DNA of 64,000 nt from Methanobacteriota archaeon. GTDB lineage: Archaea; Thermoplasmatota; Poseidoniia; Poseidoniales; Poseidoniaceae. The stretch covers positions 62,001-126,000 of the forward strand of contig PSPT01000001.1 of NCBI GenBank assembly GCA_004195635.1. Direction: 5' to 3'. Positions 22,645-30,946 of this stretch are shown piece after piece. The notes under the pieces were generated by a model. That model made no database searches, was not told the DNA's origin, and was given only the letters and a program-made list of their open reading frames with translations. A program made the translations under genes and the position numbers. Each line of letters starts with the position of its first letter. Position 1 is the stretch's first letter.

Positions 22645-22732
22645 TTTCATTATTCAGACAGGCTTTTTTGCTATCCCCAAAGCGGTGCATTGAAATCAAA
22701 GACCTCATGTGGTCAAACCGTTAGGGCTTACC

Positions 22733-25700
22733 ATGGATGTTGAAAATTCTTTTTCACGAAGTATTGCCATTGGTTTGGTACTGTTATTACTCATAACACC
22801 TTTTGCTTCACTTGCACCAGATGTATTACCCTCAGCAAGTGCTGAGGGAGGAACTAGGCACATCTACACCTTTGCTGGCGGTGCGCCTGATGCGATGGCT
22901 CTATACACCGGTTCTACAGCAGATAGGACAACAAAAATCAGTATTCCAAAGGGGGCTGAAATACTTGATGTTGAAATGACTCTATCGGGCGCATCTTCTA
23001 CAGGTTGGTCAAGTGTAAGTAGTGTGACTAGGGATGACTGGATGTCCGGCACATCTGCTGGAATCGACCAACGTTCTGAGGATTTAGCGATGGGTTTAGA
23101 GTCACCAGAATCATTATTCTTTGGGCATGCACTTGATGAGACAACAACATCACCCAATTCTGCTTGGCTTGACAATGGGACGTATTCAATCCGCCAAACT
23201 CCTCTTAGCAACTCATCCGAAACTCGTTTTACAATGCAACAACAATTTTCAAGTTCAACATTTATGTATCAAAGCCAAGGTGCTATTCTAAGCCATCACG
23301 GATGGTTATTTTTATCAAAATGGTCCAGCAACAATCCTACAAAAATGATCAATCGTCTATATGCAAATAATGCAACGAGAGAGTCAACAATTACTTTTGA
23401 CCAAGCCAATTGTCAATTACAACCAGTTTACCCCTCAACATACTATGGGCAATACGGGTTCCGCGATTGGACCTTGGGACCTGATGAGAAATTATATGGC
23501 ATTCTTTCTGGCTACAAAAATCACTATAATAATAATTTACAAACCCCTTATGAAAGGGTTGTAAAAATAGATGTGCGATATGATGATGTCTGGACTTGCG
23601 AGGAAGTTTACGACATTTCATCTCAATTTGGCGATTATTCAGCAATTTCATATGATCGCGTTGAGGACAAAATTTGGGTTGTTCACAATAGCGGAAGGCG
23701 ATTGGTGTCATATGATTTCCAAGATAACAGTTATTTTGAAAGAGATAATGACATGTACACCTTCCAATCATCGAACACTCACAAGTGTGGTAAATCTGGC
23801 GGATTGGTGCGCGGACTTGCAGTTCATGGAAATTTATTTTTCATGCGTTGTAAGGATACTGATTCAAGTTGGCCACCTAAGGATGTTCTAAATGCTTGGG
23901 CGGTTTCTGGAACCTCAACTTCTCTTGTTGCGCAACCGGGGGTTTCTTCAATTCAAGAAATTGGTTATGGCCTCCAATATGATGGGCAACGTCTCTTAAC
24001 ACAGGATTGTGGATATTATTCATGGGGTGGTGGAACCTTGTATTATCGCCAATATGGTTCTGGCATTCAATACCCAACTAATCCAGCACCGGGCACCTCC
24101 ACTTGGATTGGAGAACCAATTGAATTAAGCGAAGACCTTGTTGCAGTAAATATGGAAACTAGTTGGAGTGCTACTTCAGCTGGAGATCGTGTTGATTATT
24201 GGGTGAGCGCAGATAATGGAACACATTGGGAATCTGTTGAAAGCAATAATACCATCCACTTTTCTTTTCCCGGACATATTTTGCGTTGGAAGATGCAACT
24301 AATCGGTTCAAGTTCGGTTTCATGGTGGGTAAATTTGGAGTATGCCTCATCTTATGAGACTACAGGAGTTTGGACCTCAGCACCAATACCTACTGGGACA
24401 GAAGTGGGCAAAGTGCGGCCATCCTGGGCTGCAACTACACCAAGTGGGACTTCAGTGTCTGTTCTCGTTTCAAATGATAACGGTTCGTCATGGACAGTCG
24501 CACAAAATGGGGTTGATACTGATTTCACTAATGAGGGGAATATTCTTCGTTACAACATCCAATTGGATACTTCTGATGTTGCAATGACGCCACTTATCTC
24601 TTCATTTACCCTTGAGTACTTAGAGGGTTTCCCCGACAAAGTTGAAATTGATATTGGCGATGATGGCACGTGGGATTGGAAGGGCCTGACCTTCCTCGGC
24701 GATAGTAGCGTTATTGCAAGTGATGCTTCAATAGTCGGTTCTGAAGTAAGTGACACTCCAACTCTCGTTCAGGCATTTAATGACCATGCCGTTGCTAATG
24801 GCCTTGGTGGTGAAGATATTGTAGTTGCAATCAGGGCTCATTCAAGTGGGCGTATTTTACTTACCAATCTCGACCTTACATATCGCCTTAATACTCGTGT
24901 ACTAGATGCAAAAGTAGAGGGAGGCGTACTAGTTCCAGATGGCGAGCTTAGGACATTGGTTGTTCGCGTTGCACCAGGTGATGGAGTTAGCAGAATTGAC
25001 CGAGTGGTGGCTGATTTCATGCAGAATGATGTGAGTCCAATCTTGGAATGGACACAAGGTGACACCTGTTCACTACTTTCTAGCGGTAATGGCAAACTAG
25101 TCTTCGATAATGGGAACTGTACCTCTACTTCAGATGTTTTTGGGATTGTGTCAATACATTTTCCCATTATGTCAACTTGGGATTGGGATGACCAAGTTAA
25201 TCTTGAATTAAATGTGTCAGTGAATGACAATTTTGGAGTTGCAGTGGCGGGATGGACCACCGAGGACTTGAACCTCCGCGTGGAAAATGATATCCAATTA
25301 AATGGAATGAGGGTTGTTGATGAAACTAATCGTGAGTTATGGAGCAATGACTGGTTGAGGGGTGGCTATAATCTAACTTTTTCGGGTGGAATAAACTTCG
25401 AAAACACTCAAATTAGCCCTGAGTCTGGGCAATTTATGTTACGAATACTCGGGCAGAATCTCACTATGGATGGAGACCCAAATGAAGATGCTCCGGTATT
25501 ATTACATGAAGAGCCGAATCCAAGCCATGGTTCATACAGTATGGCTTTTACTAGCCCTCAAGAATCAGATCCAGGTGGAATGTTGTTTTCAGTTGAAGCA
25601 TTTAATTTGACTAACGGTTCAAGTTATGCCAATCAGCAGTACAACACAATTAGGCTTATCCTTGATGGAAAGAGCCCACTTGTGCTTGATGCAACGCCGG

Positions 25701-28192
25701 CTGATGGTTCTGAAATGCATAAAGGGCCTCCCGCGCCAGGCGGTCAATCAGTATCCATTACGATTCAAGATAGCGTTGACCCGCCGACTCAAATTAGTCT
25801 AAATTACTGGCTTGGATGCACAAGTCGTCATGAATATTGCTCAGATACTAATTTCAATGGTCTTCCTGAGCCGGTTGAATACCGCACAGTATCACTTACC
25901 ACACCTGAAATGCGCCCAGGTGGAATTAATATTTTCCAAGGATTAATTGATGATTCAATGCTCATACACGGTGAAAAAGTTGCCATTTATGTGTCGGGTA
26001 AAGATGATCAAGGAAATGTAGTTGCAATGGGTGGCTCCTCGGTTTGCTCTAATAGCGGAAGTGGATGTGGAAGTGGAATTGGTGAGATTGAACCCGAATG
26101 GGCAAACTCATTGGTTAATTACCATATTCGCGAGGAATTTGAACCAACATTAATTGTTGAAAATTCAACAATCATTGGGCATGATGACCGTGCGCCTCTT
26201 CACCCAGGCATCCCGTATAACCTCATATTGCAAATCGGTGATGGAAATGGCTGGAGTGATATTGCTGGCCTTCATCTTGCATTGGCTGGAGATTTTGATG
26301 ATGAAGAAACAAGTATTTGGGTGACTTTTGGTGATTTGGTAAATGGTGTGCCAAGTATGCATTTGGAAAGTGGCGGTGCTGGCTTAGCAGTTTCTAATTT
26401 GTATAGCATGGTTGCCCCTGACTTTACTAATGAATCATTATTAATGGTTAATTTGAGATTCCAACTGACCTGGAATTTCCCTGAAAAATGGGATTCAGAT
26501 GGGGTCGACTTGTTTATCCCCAAACTCGAGGTTTGGGATCGCCCTTGCTCTGAAATCGAACTGATTCCATGCCACGAAGAAAAGGCCGGTCTTGGAAATG
26601 ACGTTTGGAGTCTTGACAATGATTTGCGCTTTGATACTGCCCAAGGCCACATTACTGCAATTGAATTGCGAAATGGTGCCAATCATTATTATTCCGATGA
26701 TACAGAATCCTTAGTTGGTGCAGGTCAAGTTGTTCGCTTTTCAGGACGAATAATGTTCAGCGAGGATGCAACCCCTGCCCCCGCAGGTGCCCTTGATGTT
26801 CAATTGAGTGATTATGAATACGAGTGGATTACTCAGCCACAAAACAATGGATATTTCACAATGGACTTCCTTGTGCCAAGTGTTCGCAGCGGCCATTTGG
26901 ATTTGTATGCGTCACTTTCCAACTTACCCGGTTTGGCAACCGACCAAACTATTGAACAACCGCGCCTGAGGCTTGCTATCGACAGTTTAAACCCAATTAT
27001 TTCAGATATTGCGATTGGTGGTGTTGCTTCTGGTGAAAGCATTTCGCTGAGCGACGTTTCTAATTTACGAGCAAGTCTTGAAACATGGGATGATAGCGGT
27101 TTTGATGAATCATTACCAACAATGATGCATTATGTGCTACGTGCTGGAGAAAGTGAAGTAAGTCGTGGAAGTGTTATGCTCACAGAGCCAACCATCTTTG
27201 AGGAGCAGATTTTCTGGATTGGTCAGTTTGATCTTACCGATGGTGGTGCTACAAGTGTATTACCAACTTATTCCATTGATGTTTGGGTGACTGGTGCTGA
27301 TGCTGCAGGTAATCCATTTAATGCAGATTCCAATACAGAATCCTCGCCCCTCGGTTCTTGGACATTTATCTGGAATGGTCCTGAAATTGACCTGAGCGAT
27401 GAATTAACAGTCATTAGTTGGGATGACCCAAGTCCACATCTTGGACAAGTTGTAACTCTTCAAATCGATGGGGTTTCATTGAATGGTGTTGGAGGCAATG
27501 TGCAATTATTACTTGAGGAATACGATGGTGAAAATTGGATTAATTCAGGAGAATCCGAAATTGAAGTTCACCCAACAAAACCTTTCCATAGCGAAATAGA
27601 ATATGCTGTTACAAATACCGGAACATTTGATCGCCATACATTCCGTCTAAGATTAATGGATGGAAATTTGGAATTGGATCGTATTAGCGTTTCACCTTTG
27701 TTAATGACTGAGGAAATATCTCGCGATGGTCAAGCCTTAGTTGAGCAAGTATCTGATTCGCGCCTTTCAGTTGTTCTATATTTCATCGCTATGGGCGCAG
27801 CATGTTATGGAATGTACACGATGGTTATACATCGTCGCTTCTTGCGAGATGAAGATGAAGAAAATGTTGATTATACCGATTCAGTTGTAGAGGATATGGT
27901 TGGAAAAGAAACTCCCGACCTGCCGCCAGGTTTTACTCCAATTGATGTGAATAACCCCCCACCCCCGCCTTTTGCCGCCGCATACCCACCACAACCGACT
28001 TTACCTCCACAACCTTCCACTCCTTCAACAGAGTTGACCCCTTTGCCTTTGGCTAGCCTTGATGCCTTGTCGCCCACTCCTCTACCTACTACTGCCGCCG
28101 GCCCGCCAATTCCTGCAGAGGGATTGCCGCAAGGATGGACCGAAACCCAATGGGTACATTATGGGCAAAAATGGTTAGAAGAGAATGCTTAA
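22733..28192 (+). CDS. Giant surface protein with C-terminal TM and GWTxxQW cytoplasmic tail
   Basis: A 1819-aa protein. The start chosen is the ATG at 22733 (AGGG six bases upstream), giving a signal peptide MDVENSFSRSIAIGLVLLLL ending near ASA; a GTG at 22709 would add 8 residues. The long exported part is beta-rich: an early propeller-like region (WLFLSKWSSNN, YDGQRLLTQDCG), then repeated sandwich modules. A TM helix (about 1677-1700) is followed by about 120 cytoplasmic residues: an acidic stretch, a proline-rich linker (NNPPPPPFAAAYPPQP) and a terminal motif EGLPQGWTETQWVHYGQKWL. Nearly the same tail ends the otherwise unrelated protease at 53792. It is probably in one operon with the preceding Ca-loop giant and the small gene after it. 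Function unknown; surface adhesion or binding is inferred. Confidence 0.82.
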   Translation: MDVENSFSRSIAIGLVLLLLITPFASLAPDVLPSASAEGGTRHIYTFAGGAPDAMALYTGSTADRTTKISIPKGAEILDVEMTLSGASSTGWSSVSSVTRDDWMSGTSAGIDQRSEDLAMGLESPESLFFGHALDETTTSPNSAWLDNGTYSIRQTPLSNSSETRFTMQQQFSSSTFMYQSQGAILSHHGWLFLSKWSSNNPTKMINRLYANNATRESTITFDQANCQLQPVYPSTYYGQYGFRDWTLGPDEKLYGILSGYKNHYNNNLQTPYERVVKIDVRYDDVWTCEEVYDISSQFGDYSAISYDRVEDKIWVVHNSGRRLVSYDFQDNSYFERDNDMYTFQSSNTHKCGKSGGLVRGLAVHGNLFFMRCKDTDSSWPPKDVLNAWAVSGTSTSLVAQPGVSSIQEIGYGLQYDGQRLLTQDCGYYSWGGGTLYYRQYGSGIQYPTNPAPGTSTWIGEPIELSEDLVAVNMETSWSATSAGDRVDYWVSADNGTHWESVESNNTIHFSFPGHILRWKMQLIGSSSVSWWVNLEYASSYETTGVWTSAPIPTGTEVGKVRPSWAATTPSGTSVSVLVSNDNGSSWTVAQNGVDTDFTNEGNILRYNIQLDTSDVAMTPLISSFTLEYLEGFPDKVEIDIGDDGTWDWKGLTFLGDSSVIASDASIVGSEVSDTPTLVQAFNDHAVANGLGGEDIVVAIRAHSSGRILLTNLDLTYRLNTRVLDAKVEGGVLVPDGELRTLVVRVAPGDGVSRIDRVVADFMQNDVSPILEWTQGDTCSLLSSGNGKLVFDNGNCTSTSDVFGIVSIHFPIMSTWDWDDQVNLELNVSVNDNFGVAVAGWTTEDLNLRVENDIQLNGMRVVDETNRELWSNDWLRGGYNLTFSGGINFENTQISPESGQFMLRILGQNLTMDGDPNEDAPVLLHEEPNPSHGSYSMAFTSPQESDPGGMLFSVEAFNLTNGSSYANQQYNTIRLILDGKSPLVLDATPADGSEMHKGPPAPGGQSVSITIQDSVDPPTQISLNYWLGCTSRHEYCSDTNFNGLPEPVEYRTVSLTTPEMRPGGINIFQGLIDDSMLIHGEKVAIYVSGKDDQGNVVAMGGSSVCSNSGSGCGSGIGEIEPEWANSLVNYHIREEFEPTLIVENSTIIGHDDRAPLHPGIPYNLILQIGDGNGWSDIAGLHLALAGDFDDEETSIWVTFGDLVNGVPSMHLESGGAGLAVSNLYSMVAPDFTNESLLMVNLRFQLTWNFPEKWDSDGVDLFIPKLEVWDRPCSEIELIPCHEEKAGLGNDVWSLDNDLRFDTAQGHITAIELRNGANHYYSDDTESLVGAGQVVRFSGRIMFSEDATPAPAGALDVQLSDYEYEWITQPQNNGYFTMDFLVPSVRSGHLDLYASLSNLPGLATDQTIEQPRLRLAIDSLNPIISDIAIGGVASGESISLSDVSNLRASLETWDDSGFDESLPTMMHYVLRAGESEVSRGSVMLTEPTIFEEQIFWIGQFDLTDGGATSVLPTYSIDVWVTGADAAGNPFNADSNTESSPLGSWTFIWNGPEIDLSDELTVISWDDPSPHLGQVVTLQIDGVSLNGVGGNVQLLLEEYDGENWINSGESEIEVHPTKPFHSEIEYAVTNTGTFDRHTFRLRLMDGNLELDRISVSPLLMTEEISRDGQALVEQVSDSRLSVVLYFIAMGAACYGMYTMVIHRRFLRDEDEENVDYTDSVVEDMVGKETPDLPPGFTPIDVNNPPPPPFAAAYPPQPTLPPQPSTPSTELTPLPLASLDALSPTPLPTTAAGPPIPAEGLPQGWTETQWVHYGQKWLEENA

Positions 28193-28210
28193 TTGGCAGA
28201 GGTGAACTCT

Positions 28211-28711
28211 TTGAGTGAGCAATACAAGGAGGGCATGCTTTTCTTGCATGAACAACTAGTTGCAATAATTAATCAAATGACAATACCTCTCATTGAAGTT
28301 AGTCTTGTTATCTCTAAATATACAAAAACTCTATCCTCAAGGCTGATTGAAAATGCCGCTAATTACGGCGAATTAATTCCTGCTATTCTGTTGGCACCTC
28401 AACCTCTTGAAGATATTGGAAAGGAACAAGCAGTGCAGGTTCAAACCAGTGATGGTGAAGAAGTTGTGAATGTTTCTATGCCAAATCCTATTGCACAAAT
28501 GGACCCCTCTCTCCTCATTTCACGAACAGATATTGATCGAATGGACATTCTTGATACAGTAATTAGGACCGCAATTAATAGCAAAGAACTTCCATTGATT
28601 AATTCACTGCATGTCTTGCGTGATTGGGAGCATTTAGTTCGGATACAATTAGCCAAGACAAAAACTCCGGGGCAATTATTTAGTCCACTTGAAATTCCTG
28701 ATGGATATTGA
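28211..28711 (+). CDS. Small protein of unknown function, follows the giant surface protein
   Basis: A 166-aa soluble, largely helical protein without recognised domain, signal peptide or TM segment. The start is a TTG at 28211: GAGGTG (28199-28204) followed by exactly six bases and TTG, the same arrangement as at pheT and rnp4, gives MSEQYKEGMLFLHEQL. Earlier candidates (TTG 28193, GTG 28202) lie at or inside that ribosome-binding site. It begins 18 bases after the giant gene's stop, so it is surely co-transcribed and may act with its cytoplasmic tail; that is inference. It converges on the 28758 gene with a 46-base gap holding a weak TGCTT/AAGCA hairpin at 28741-28753. Confidence 0.65.
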   Translation: MSEQYKEGMLFLHEQLVAIINQMTIPLIEVSLVISKYTKTLSSRLIENAANYGELIPAILLAPQPLEDIGKEQAVQVQTSDGEEVVNVSMPNPIAQMDPSLLISRTDIDRMDILDTVIRTAINSKELPLINSLHVLRDWEHLVRIQLAKTKTPGQLFSPLEIPDGY

Positions 28712-28757
28712 GATTTGTGGAACAAGTTTTGTAAGATTAATGCTTATTAAGCAGAAA

Positions 28758-29141
28758 TCACGCTTTATTTCTGCGCATTACTCGCCCCAACAATCCACTC
28801 TTTTTCGCACTACTCCCTCTATTATGACGGCTCCTTGACTGTCCAGTGGCTATATACCAAGCATCAAAAATGGACCATAGCCATAGGCCAATGGCAAATA
28901 TGATTGTTAGAATCAAAGGAATTTGTAGTAAACTCCAATCAAATGCCTTTCTATGCTCTCGATTAAAATGCTGACCCAAATATAAAAAAGGAATAAGGGC
29001 TAATAATACTGCAAAAATAGGCCGCATTGAACCCCATATCCCAATTCCAGAAGTTAATTCTGACCAAATTACTCTGAGAACATTTTTTGTAGAGGTGCCA
29101 CTATCAAGGCGAACAACAATCTCCTCCTCATGTGTCGCCAT
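28758..29141 (-). CDS. Small membrane protein of unknown function
   Basis: A 127-aa protein with two clear TM segments (about 41-56, MRPIFAVLLALIPFLYLG, and about 73-92, LLQIPLILTIIFAIGLWLWS) and a basic C-terminal tail (SRSRHNRGSSAKKSG...RRNKA). Both ends are probably cytoplasmic. The start is supported by GAGGG six bases upstream. The helix-W-x-x-DAWYIA stretch resembles small TM2-like or DUF-type archaeal membrane proteins, but I do not recognise a family. Single gene, divergent from the PCP-Nudix gene with a 101-base gap. Confidence 0.6.
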   Translation of the reverse strand: MATHEEEIVVRLDSGTSTKNVLRVIWSELTSGIGIWGSMRPIFAVLLALIPFLYLGQHFNREHRKAFDWSLLQIPLILTIIFAIGLWLWSIFDAWYIATGQSRSRHNRGSSAKKSGLLGRVMRRNKA

Positions 29142-29242
29142 AGCAGTCCCTCAAGCCCCCCCTGTTGCCCCTATGGGTTGAATCCTTCGCCCATTTTTAT
29201 TATAGCAATGATGTTTAAGCAGTTATTGTTGGGGGGGAGTAA

Positions 29243-30358
29243 ATGGTTAATGTGTTATTGACAGGGTTTGACCCATTTGGAAGTAATTCGGCCAATATTT
29301 CTCGCCAAGTATGCGATTATTTGAGGAAAAAAGGTATTTCAAAAATATCCCCACTTCACTCCTCAAAGTGTTCCGAAAAGGGCGCTGCGTTGCCGTCAAG
29401 AGGTAGTGAAGTTGAAATTGAATGGTATATTGAAGACTTGAGTGTTGATGAAGCAGGCTCATCTTTAGTGGCCAATAATCTTCTTTCATCAAGAATCATC
29501 CACTCGAGGAATAAGCAATTTACTCCGCACCCTCAGGCAATTCTCCACCTAGGTCTTTGTAGCGAGTGCGAAGTTCCGCGAATTGAATTGGTCGCAACAA
29601 ATAAAATGGATTTCAAAATAGCAGATAATTCCGGCCGTCAAATCTCCTCTACATCTTGTGCGGAAAACAATCTAACTCAGATAATTCAAGATGGGCCTTC
29701 TAAATGGGCATCTACAGTTCCGGCAAAATATTTCCCTCGGCATCTCCTATCTATTCCCATTGAAATTTCTACTGACGCTGGAACTTTTGTCTGTAACGAA
29801 ACTTACGCGAGAACTCTTGATGCAGTAACTTCCCTTTCCATCAGAGACCGACTGAATAGGCAATTACCCACCTTATTCTTACATCTTCCTCCAGTGGAAA
29901 AAATGTCTCTTCTTAAGCAGGTAAAATTAGTTGAGGAATTAGCCGCATGGATGGTCACACCTCATACACTAACTGTCGCAGGTGCAGTATTAATAGGGGA
30001 CGATGGTAGAATATTCTCTTGCCGCCGATCCCAAAATGAATCATTCGCAGGAGGCTGGGAATTTCCCGGTGGTAAAGTTGAGTCTGGTGAATCAATCAAA
30101 GAATGCCTAGTCCGCGAGATGGATGAGGAATTGGCAATTGAGATTGAAGTAGGCAACCCCCTCGGCATTATTAGGAAAAGTACAGGCCCATTTGTGCTGG
30201 AGATTCATGCATGGTCATGCAAACAAATATCTGGTGAAATACAATTAAGCGTACACGATGCGAGTCGTTGGCTGGATTTGTCTGAACTGCAAGATGCTGA
30301 ATGGATGGACACCGATGCTGAACTGATTCCACAAATTATTAATTCATTATCTAATTGA
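29243..30358 (+). CDS. Pyroglutamyl-peptidase I / Nudix hydrolase fusion
   Basis: A 371-aa two-domain enzyme. Residues 1-220 match pyroglutamyl-peptidase I (peptidase C15): N-terminal LLTGFDPFGSNSAN, then a conserved triad of Glu115 (PRIELVA), Cys184 (AGTFVCNETY) and His214 (FLHLPP), with family-like spacing. Residues 244-371 match a MutT-type Nudix domain: AGAVLIGDDGRIF, then a Nudix box G277-x5-E283-x7-R291-E292-M-x-E295-E296, differing from consensus only in the last G (Ala298). PCP removes N-terminal pyroglutamate; Nudix enzymes clean nucleoside diphosphate derivatives such as 8-oxo-dGTP. I know of no standard enzyme combining the two, and nothing suggests a broken stop codon: the linker is short and in frame. 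The start has GGGAG upstream. Its end overlaps the UPF0201 gene tail to tail by 8 bases. Confidence 0.85.
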   Translation: MVNVLLTGFDPFGSNSANISRQVCDYLRKKGISKISPLHSSKCSEKGAALPSRGSEVEIEWYIEDLSVDEAGSSLVANNLLSSRIIHSRNKQFTPHPQAILHLGLCSECEVPRIELVATNKMDFKIADNSGRQISSTSCAENNLTQIIQDGPSKWASTVPAKYFPRHLLSIPIEISTDAGTFVCNETYARTLDAVTSLSIRDRLNRQLPTLFLHLPPVEKMSLLKQVKLVEELAAWMVTPHTLTVAGAVLIGDDGRIFSCRRSQNESFAGGWEFPGGKVESGESIKECLVREMDEELAIEIEVGNPLGIIRKSTGPFVLEIHAWSCKQISGEIQLSVHDASRWLDLSELQDAEWMDTDAELIPQIINSLSN

Positions 30359-30860
30359 CCCAACCTCTTGGCTTACCATCGGAAAACATTTGCAAATCAT
30401 CACCAATATTACGAGGTATTTCCTCACGCCCAGGATGCCAAGTCGCTTCCTCTAACCAAATGTCAAGGTCCTCACCCTCAAGATCAATTGAGATTGTGCC
30501 GCCGAGTGGTCTCTCTCCTATCACCGTGAAAGATAGTTTTCCGGCAAGGGCGGCTTGCCGACTCAATCGAAAACGCGTATGTCCTCCATTCAAACTTGCG
30601 CTCATTGAATCAAGTGCAGTATCCAATATTCTTTGGTTTGCCGCTAATTCAAGTAGATTTGCAATTGAAACACCCACGGCAGAAAATGAATGCGGGTTAT
30701 TTGAAAGGGGAAAATTAGGCTCAATGTATTTTTCAGAGTGCGGAAATTCAGGGAAAATATTTCCTATTGCTTCTAGGACTTTAGCAGGCGACTCCCCAAG
30801 TTCTACTTTAGAACTCACTCTTACCTCGATACCTTGGCCGGCTCCATCTGCTCGTGACAT
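30351..30860 (-). CDS. UPF0201 family protein (COG1931), putative RNA-binding
   Basis: A 169-aa protein matching the archaeal UPF0201 pattern: a beta strand and helix ending NIFPEF, a helix with ANQRILDTALDSM, the signature FRLSRQAALAGKLSF (family FxLNKQAA), then GGTISIDLEG and LDIWLEEATWHPG. Solved family members have a double-stranded-RNA-binding-like fold; the role is unknown. The ATG at 30860 follows GGGGTATAAC; the frame also opens at 30887. A similar-sized antisense frame is a shadow. Convergent with the PCP-Nudix gene (8-base overlap) and divergent from the glycosyltransferase. Confidence 0.8.
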   Translation of the reverse strand: MSRADGAGQGIEVRVSSKVELGESPAKVLEAIGNIFPEFPHSEKYIEPNFPLSNNPHSFSAVGVSIANLLELAANQRILDTALDSMSASLNGGHTRFRLSRQAALAGKLSFTVIGERPLGGTISIDLEGEDLDIWLEEATWHPGREEIPRNIGDDLQMFSDGKPRGWVN

Positions 30861-30946
30861 GTTATACCCCTTCCAGATAAAGGTCACCTAAAACGCTTGC
30901 CGAATAAAAATCAGGGGTCATCTTGACAAATGAGAGGTATGGGCTA

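Follow-up and report, generated by a model that had tools for sequence, protein, structure and literature searches.

A gene in which a pyroglutamyl peptidase I (PCP-I) domain is fused to a MutT/NudG-type Nudix hydrolase domain was found in the genome of a Poseidoniaceae archaeon, in a stretch of DNA of 64,000 nucleotides that was analysed as a whole (the window). The gene probably encodes a bifunctional housekeeping protein, in which a PCP-I and a MutT/NudG-like Nudix enzyme, both of the ordinary type, share one chain with independent activities, as the result of one ancient fusion. The two families are known, and their joint architecture is apparently new, being undescribed in the open-access papers searched, in which we found none joining PCP-I and Nudix as a fusion or as a pathway. 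This is in agreement with an earlier note on this DNA, which knew of no described pathway linking the removal of pyroglutamate with the cleaning of the nucleotide pool. The combination of PF01470 and PF00293 is probably listed automatically in InterPro. The coordinates of the gene, its domains and its neighbours are given in Table 1.

Table 1. Features of the fusion gene and its surroundings (positions refer to the window).
Feature	Position	Strand	Basis or remark
PCP-I–Nudix fusion gene	29243..30358	+	single open frame; full-length homologous frames in 108/127 Poseidoniales genomes
Pyroglutamyl peptidase I domain (MEROPS C15 / PF01470), residues 1-238	29243..29956	+	Pfam, PDB sequence and fold matches; triad invariant in 26 members
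Triad codons	Glu115 29585-29587; Cys184 29792-29794; His214 29882-29884	+	
Low-confidence PCP insertion, ~residues 36-56	29348..29410	+	pLDDT < 50 at residues 40-53; gapped in alignment A1
MutT/NudG-type Nudix hydrolase domain, residues 240-371	29960..30355	+	PF00293 and PF14815 in 26/26 members; fold matches
Nudix box, residues 277-299 (GKVESGESIKECLVREMDEELAI)	30071..30139	+	G277, E283, R291, E292, E295, E296 unchanged across 26 members
Putative archaeal TATA-like element (TTTTATTATAG) and G-rich Shine-Dalgarno-like stretch directly 5' of ATG	29194..29242	+	sequence reading
Divergent 127-aa membrane-protein gene, conserved neighbour	28758..29141	-	family beside fusion in 30/40 loci compared; no Pfam match
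Convergent PF01877-like (RNA_binding, below cut-off) gene	30351..30887	-	3' end overlaps fusion gene by 8 bp

The frame opens with ATG, closes with TGA and encodes 371 amino acids with no internal stop, and neither a frameshift nor a stop separates the two domains. The source of the window is a draft assembly of 31 contigs, which would favour an artefact of assembly or a frameshift that joined two adjacent genes. Such an artefact is practically inconceivable, as the same uninterrupted frame is present in more than 100 independent genomes from most genera surveyed, including a genome assembled as a single contig (G011), and we consider it ruled out. The fusion claimed in the earlier note is therefore genuine and not limited to a single genome. 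The TATA-like and Shine-Dalgarno-like signals upstream of the gene are regarded as putative, candidate elements.

The N-terminal half matches PF01470 (E 5.6e-13, 49.8 bits versus a cut-off of 22.7) and possesses the canonical pocket motifs TGFxPFG, E-x-x-A-x-N, DNxG, AGxxxCN and F-x-H-x-P. The triad Glu115, Cys184 and His214, as previously assigned, lies within PCP-I motifs and aligns with solved PCPs; the columns invariant in 26 diverse members (alignment A1) include F12, E115, N129, G131, R132, C184 and H214. In the predicted model, this domain matches solved PCPs (Foldseek probability 1.00, target TM 0.68-0.80), including the pyroglutamate-bound PCP of D. radiodurans (5z48). The equivalog level of NCBIfam is missed, with 53.6 of 201.75 bits for TIGR00504 and 63.1 of 199 for PRK13197. 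Judged by its sequence, the PCP half is a divergent member of the C15 family for which an equivalog-level assignment is not possible.

Similar to the PCP-I (EC 3.4.19.3) of T. thermophilus (2ebj), B. anthracis (3lac) and T. litoralis (1a2z), the fusion protein has the PCP fold and the Glu-Cys-His triad, and the F-x-P-F loop and the DNxG, AGxxxCN and F-x-H-x-P motifs are common to both. In contrast, only the fusion protein possesses a C-terminal Nudix domain and a variable extra loop at residues 36-56, and it shows 20-26% identity over the fold match, under the NCBIfam equivalog cut-offs. This insertion differs in length among members, and is missing from many of them as well as from canonical PCPs. 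A CxxC pair (GLCSEC, 29558-29569, residues 106-109) is located in the loop directly before Glu115 in most members of family f1, but is lacking in family f2; the pair may bind metal or respond to redox state.

The AlphaFold model of the whole protein reached a pLDDT of 84.6 and a pTM of 0.79, with residues 40-53 and 85-93, both of variable length, modelled at low confidence. The last helix of the PCP domain spans residues 223-238 and the first Nudix strand starts at residue 241, therefore there is essentially no linker between the domains.

The C-terminal half matches PF00293 (E 1.9e-17, 63.9 bits versus a cut-off of 21.1), and both PF01470 and PF00293 were matched in all of the 26 members. The description of both domains as complete is upheld by matches above the Pfam cut-offs and by conserved catalytic residues. 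All catalytic positions are present in the Nudix box, which has the layout G277-KVESG-E283-SIKECLV-R291-E292-M-D-E295-E296-L-A-I. As reported in the earlier note, the box departs from GX5EX7REUXEEXGU at one position, the late Gly, which is Ala in the protein of the window and variable in other members. Domain 2 of the model matches BdRppH, E. coli Orf135/NudG and M. smegmatis MutT2 with a Foldseek probability of 1.00. The equivalogs MutT (TIGR00586, 78.1 bits versus a cut-off of 97.9) and NudG (PRK10546, 77.3 bits versus 156) were missed. The exact substrates of both domains are uncertain because the NCBIfam equivalog cut-offs for MutT, NudG and PCP-I were not reached.

MutT, NudG (Orf135, CTP pyrophosphohydrolase), MutT2 and BdRppH share the Nudix fold and box with the fusion protein, at about 30-34% identity and target-normalised TM-scores of 0.82-0.92. 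In the Bacteroides CTP pyrophosphohydrolase 3gwy, an Asp aligns with Asp358 of the fusion protein. Unlike these enzymes, the Nudix domain described here is the C-terminal half of a two-domain protein, has Ala at the late Gly and scores under the equivalog cut-offs. Other Nudix fusions, such as PRK08999 and NadM-Nudix, likewise combine Nudix with an unrelated enzyme; here, however, Nudix is the C-terminal domain and is joined to a cysteine peptidase. The best NCBIfam match of the domain is the Nudix half of PRK08999 (81 bits), a Nudix protein with a C-terminal ThiE-like domain.

In the proposed mechanism, Cys184, activated by His214 and Glu115, would remove N-terminal pyroglutamate from peptides, and Glu292, Glu295 and Glu296 would hold Mg2+ for the hydrolysis of NTPs (damaged or non-canonical) to NMP and PPi. 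The two activities would be independent, with no substrate passed between the sites. For this protein, the catalysis by each domain, the precise nucleotide that is hydrolysed and the independence of the halves in the cell are what we infer.

Among the 127 Poseidoniales (Marine Group II) genomes in a phylum-wide sample (n=390, counts taken from its table), 108 carry the fusion as one match across both domains, including one in which the match begins at a contig edge (G028), and both families sampled are represented. In four genomes the fusion is broken by contig edges or gaps only (G321, G013, G293 and G365), seven genomes have a PCP-only gene, and eight have no gene or only unrelated Nudix matches. 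G365 was considered as a case of a relic Nudix domain and rejected, since the interruption is a run of N within a real fusion. In a survey of 59 relatives, a match was present in 58 genomes and in 20/20 genera, in most cases spanning both domains within a single frame; a small number correspond to PCP-only genes or to unrelated Nudix genes. All named matches with both domains in the GTDB collection belong to Candidatus Poseidoniales, Poseidoniaceae, Thalassarchaeaceae or 'Euryarchaeota archaeon' MAGs.

Neither the 8 genomes of the sister order in the class nor the remaining Thermoplasmatota of the sample yielded the fusion; there, PCP and Nudix are matched by separate genes. The search of 1,044 bacterial genomes (299 Pseudomonadota, 300 Bacillota, 198 Bacteroidota and 247 Actinomycetota) also revealed no fusion, with one Bacillota match to Nudix alone; the phylum names were taken from the central loci of these samples, which have no built-in positive control. 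Separate bacterial PCP and Nudix genes were scored by the same model, and a bacterial fusion should exceed the threshold used.

Wherever the locus was compared among Poseidoniales, in most sampled genera, the fusion occupies the same syntenic place. All Poseidoniales PCPs form a single clade in the PCP tree (99% SH-aLRT), and the PCP-only genes of genera g14 and g15 branch from within the fusions, with four parsimony changes, at least two of them forced by starred branches. The fusion most likely arose once, in the ancestor of Poseidoniales. PCP-only genes occur at the fusion locus in g15 (L158, L161 and L163) and in g14 (L159, L162, L164 and L165). They stop where the Nudix domain would begin, abut the convergent gene and retain the triad, and no relic of the Nudix domain was found downstream of them. 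At least two lineages have undergone a clean deletion of the Nudix half with the PCP triad kept. The whole gene was lost several times: G037, G390 and G258 lack it between flanks that lie close together, and G003 lacks it beside a changed flank. Of the other genomes without the fusion, G333, G352 and G048 stop at contig edges and G331 is not resolved.

The members of the fusion share 32-88% identity, which indicates persistence across deep divergence in most genomes. Values of dN/dS are 0.14-0.39 for the PCP and 0.06-0.23 for the Nudix half in the pairs for which they were computable, those with dS > 1 being rough. These values point to purifying selection on both halves, with lower dN/dS for Nudix. 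No PCP other than this copy turned up in the genomes checked, whereas Nudix matches number 2-8 per genome. The Nudix-domain tree has too few columns for rooting or for naming a donor.

The fusion gene appears to form its own transcription unit, because its neighbours are oriented divergently on the upstream side and convergently on the downstream side, the latter with an 8-bp 3' overlap. No operon or pathway partner was detected in the conserved synteny, where the neighbours include a glycosyltransferase, a zinc-ribbon protein and DnaJ. The gene stands alone, and therefore its context yields no shared pathway. At window positions 28193-29141, genes for a 172-aa protein (+) and the 127-aa membrane protein (-), both without Pfam match, each adjoin the fusion in 30 compared loci. 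A predicted surface protein of 1827 aa without Pfam match (22709-28192) is part of a conserved synteny block in many compared genomes.

The loss of the Nudix half in at least two lineages with an intact PCP triad shows that PCP function needs no Nudix half. The persistence of the fusion across deep divergence could, on the other hand, reflect selected coupling of the two activities. Such coupling might serve damage control, in which cyclised peptide N-termini (a spontaneous lesion of Gln/Glu) and oxidised or modified nucleotides would be dealt with by co-expressed and co-located enzymes under light or oxidative stress in surface-ocean cells. This is close to a suggestion of the earlier note, by which both domains may handle damaged metabolites. 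The retention of one chain in most Poseidoniales genomes and the direct junction of the domains are consistent with this explanation, and MutT/NudG relatives are sanitising enzymes. Pyroglutamate also seems to be no nutrient by known routes. In a survey of two enzyme families, PxpA, one of two known 5-oxoproline-catabolic families surveyed, was detected in 0/59 Poseidoniales genomes, and 5-oxoprolinase-type hydantoinase B in only one of the 59 (G002:C66:14292-15860, a 1266-aa frame). This near absence is a mild argument against pyroglutamate as food, and in favour of simple peptide unblocking or export. Nonetheless, a few genomes lost both domains in addition to the lineages that dropped only Nudix, and no stress or repair genes are clearly linked in the neighbourhood, where DnaJ is encoded three genes downstream. 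The case for a shared damage-control role is one of common theme. We consider this role unlikely, and find it slightly more doubtful still that the fusion was selected because both activities serve one damage-control task in these abundant surface-ocean archaea under light or oxidative stress.

The earlier note also suggested that the PCP domain may act on something other than peptides. Its substrate would then be a nucleotide-connected compound, such as a cyclised or amide-linked metabolite, with the Nudix domain acting either on that compound or on the one that follows it. The clade-specific residues Arg132 (DNSGR) and Glu186 (CNE), invariant in 26 members, and the CxxC pair before Glu115 in most of family f1 would fit such a shift. 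However, variations of this type are also found in solved PCPs, with DNRGR in T. thermophilus 2ebj and CNE in Fervidobacterium 6ltq. The pocket motifs are canonical, and the lineages with a clean Nudix deletion still have a PCP with the full triad, which makes a non-peptide substrate highly improbable. Two independent enzymes in one chain are the preferred reading.

The PCP-I–Nudix fusion represents an order-wide architecture, probably of single origin, in Marine Group II archaea, for which we know of no widely used laboratory model. It corrects the annotation of these genes, as a Nudix or a peptidase label alone is incomplete. Fused, PCP-only and gene-less close relatives at the same locus provide a clean natural experiment. 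If the activities are not coupled, the fusion would be neutral but stable. If they are coupled, damage control of peptide ends and of nucleotides would be tied together by a functional link that was undescribed before.
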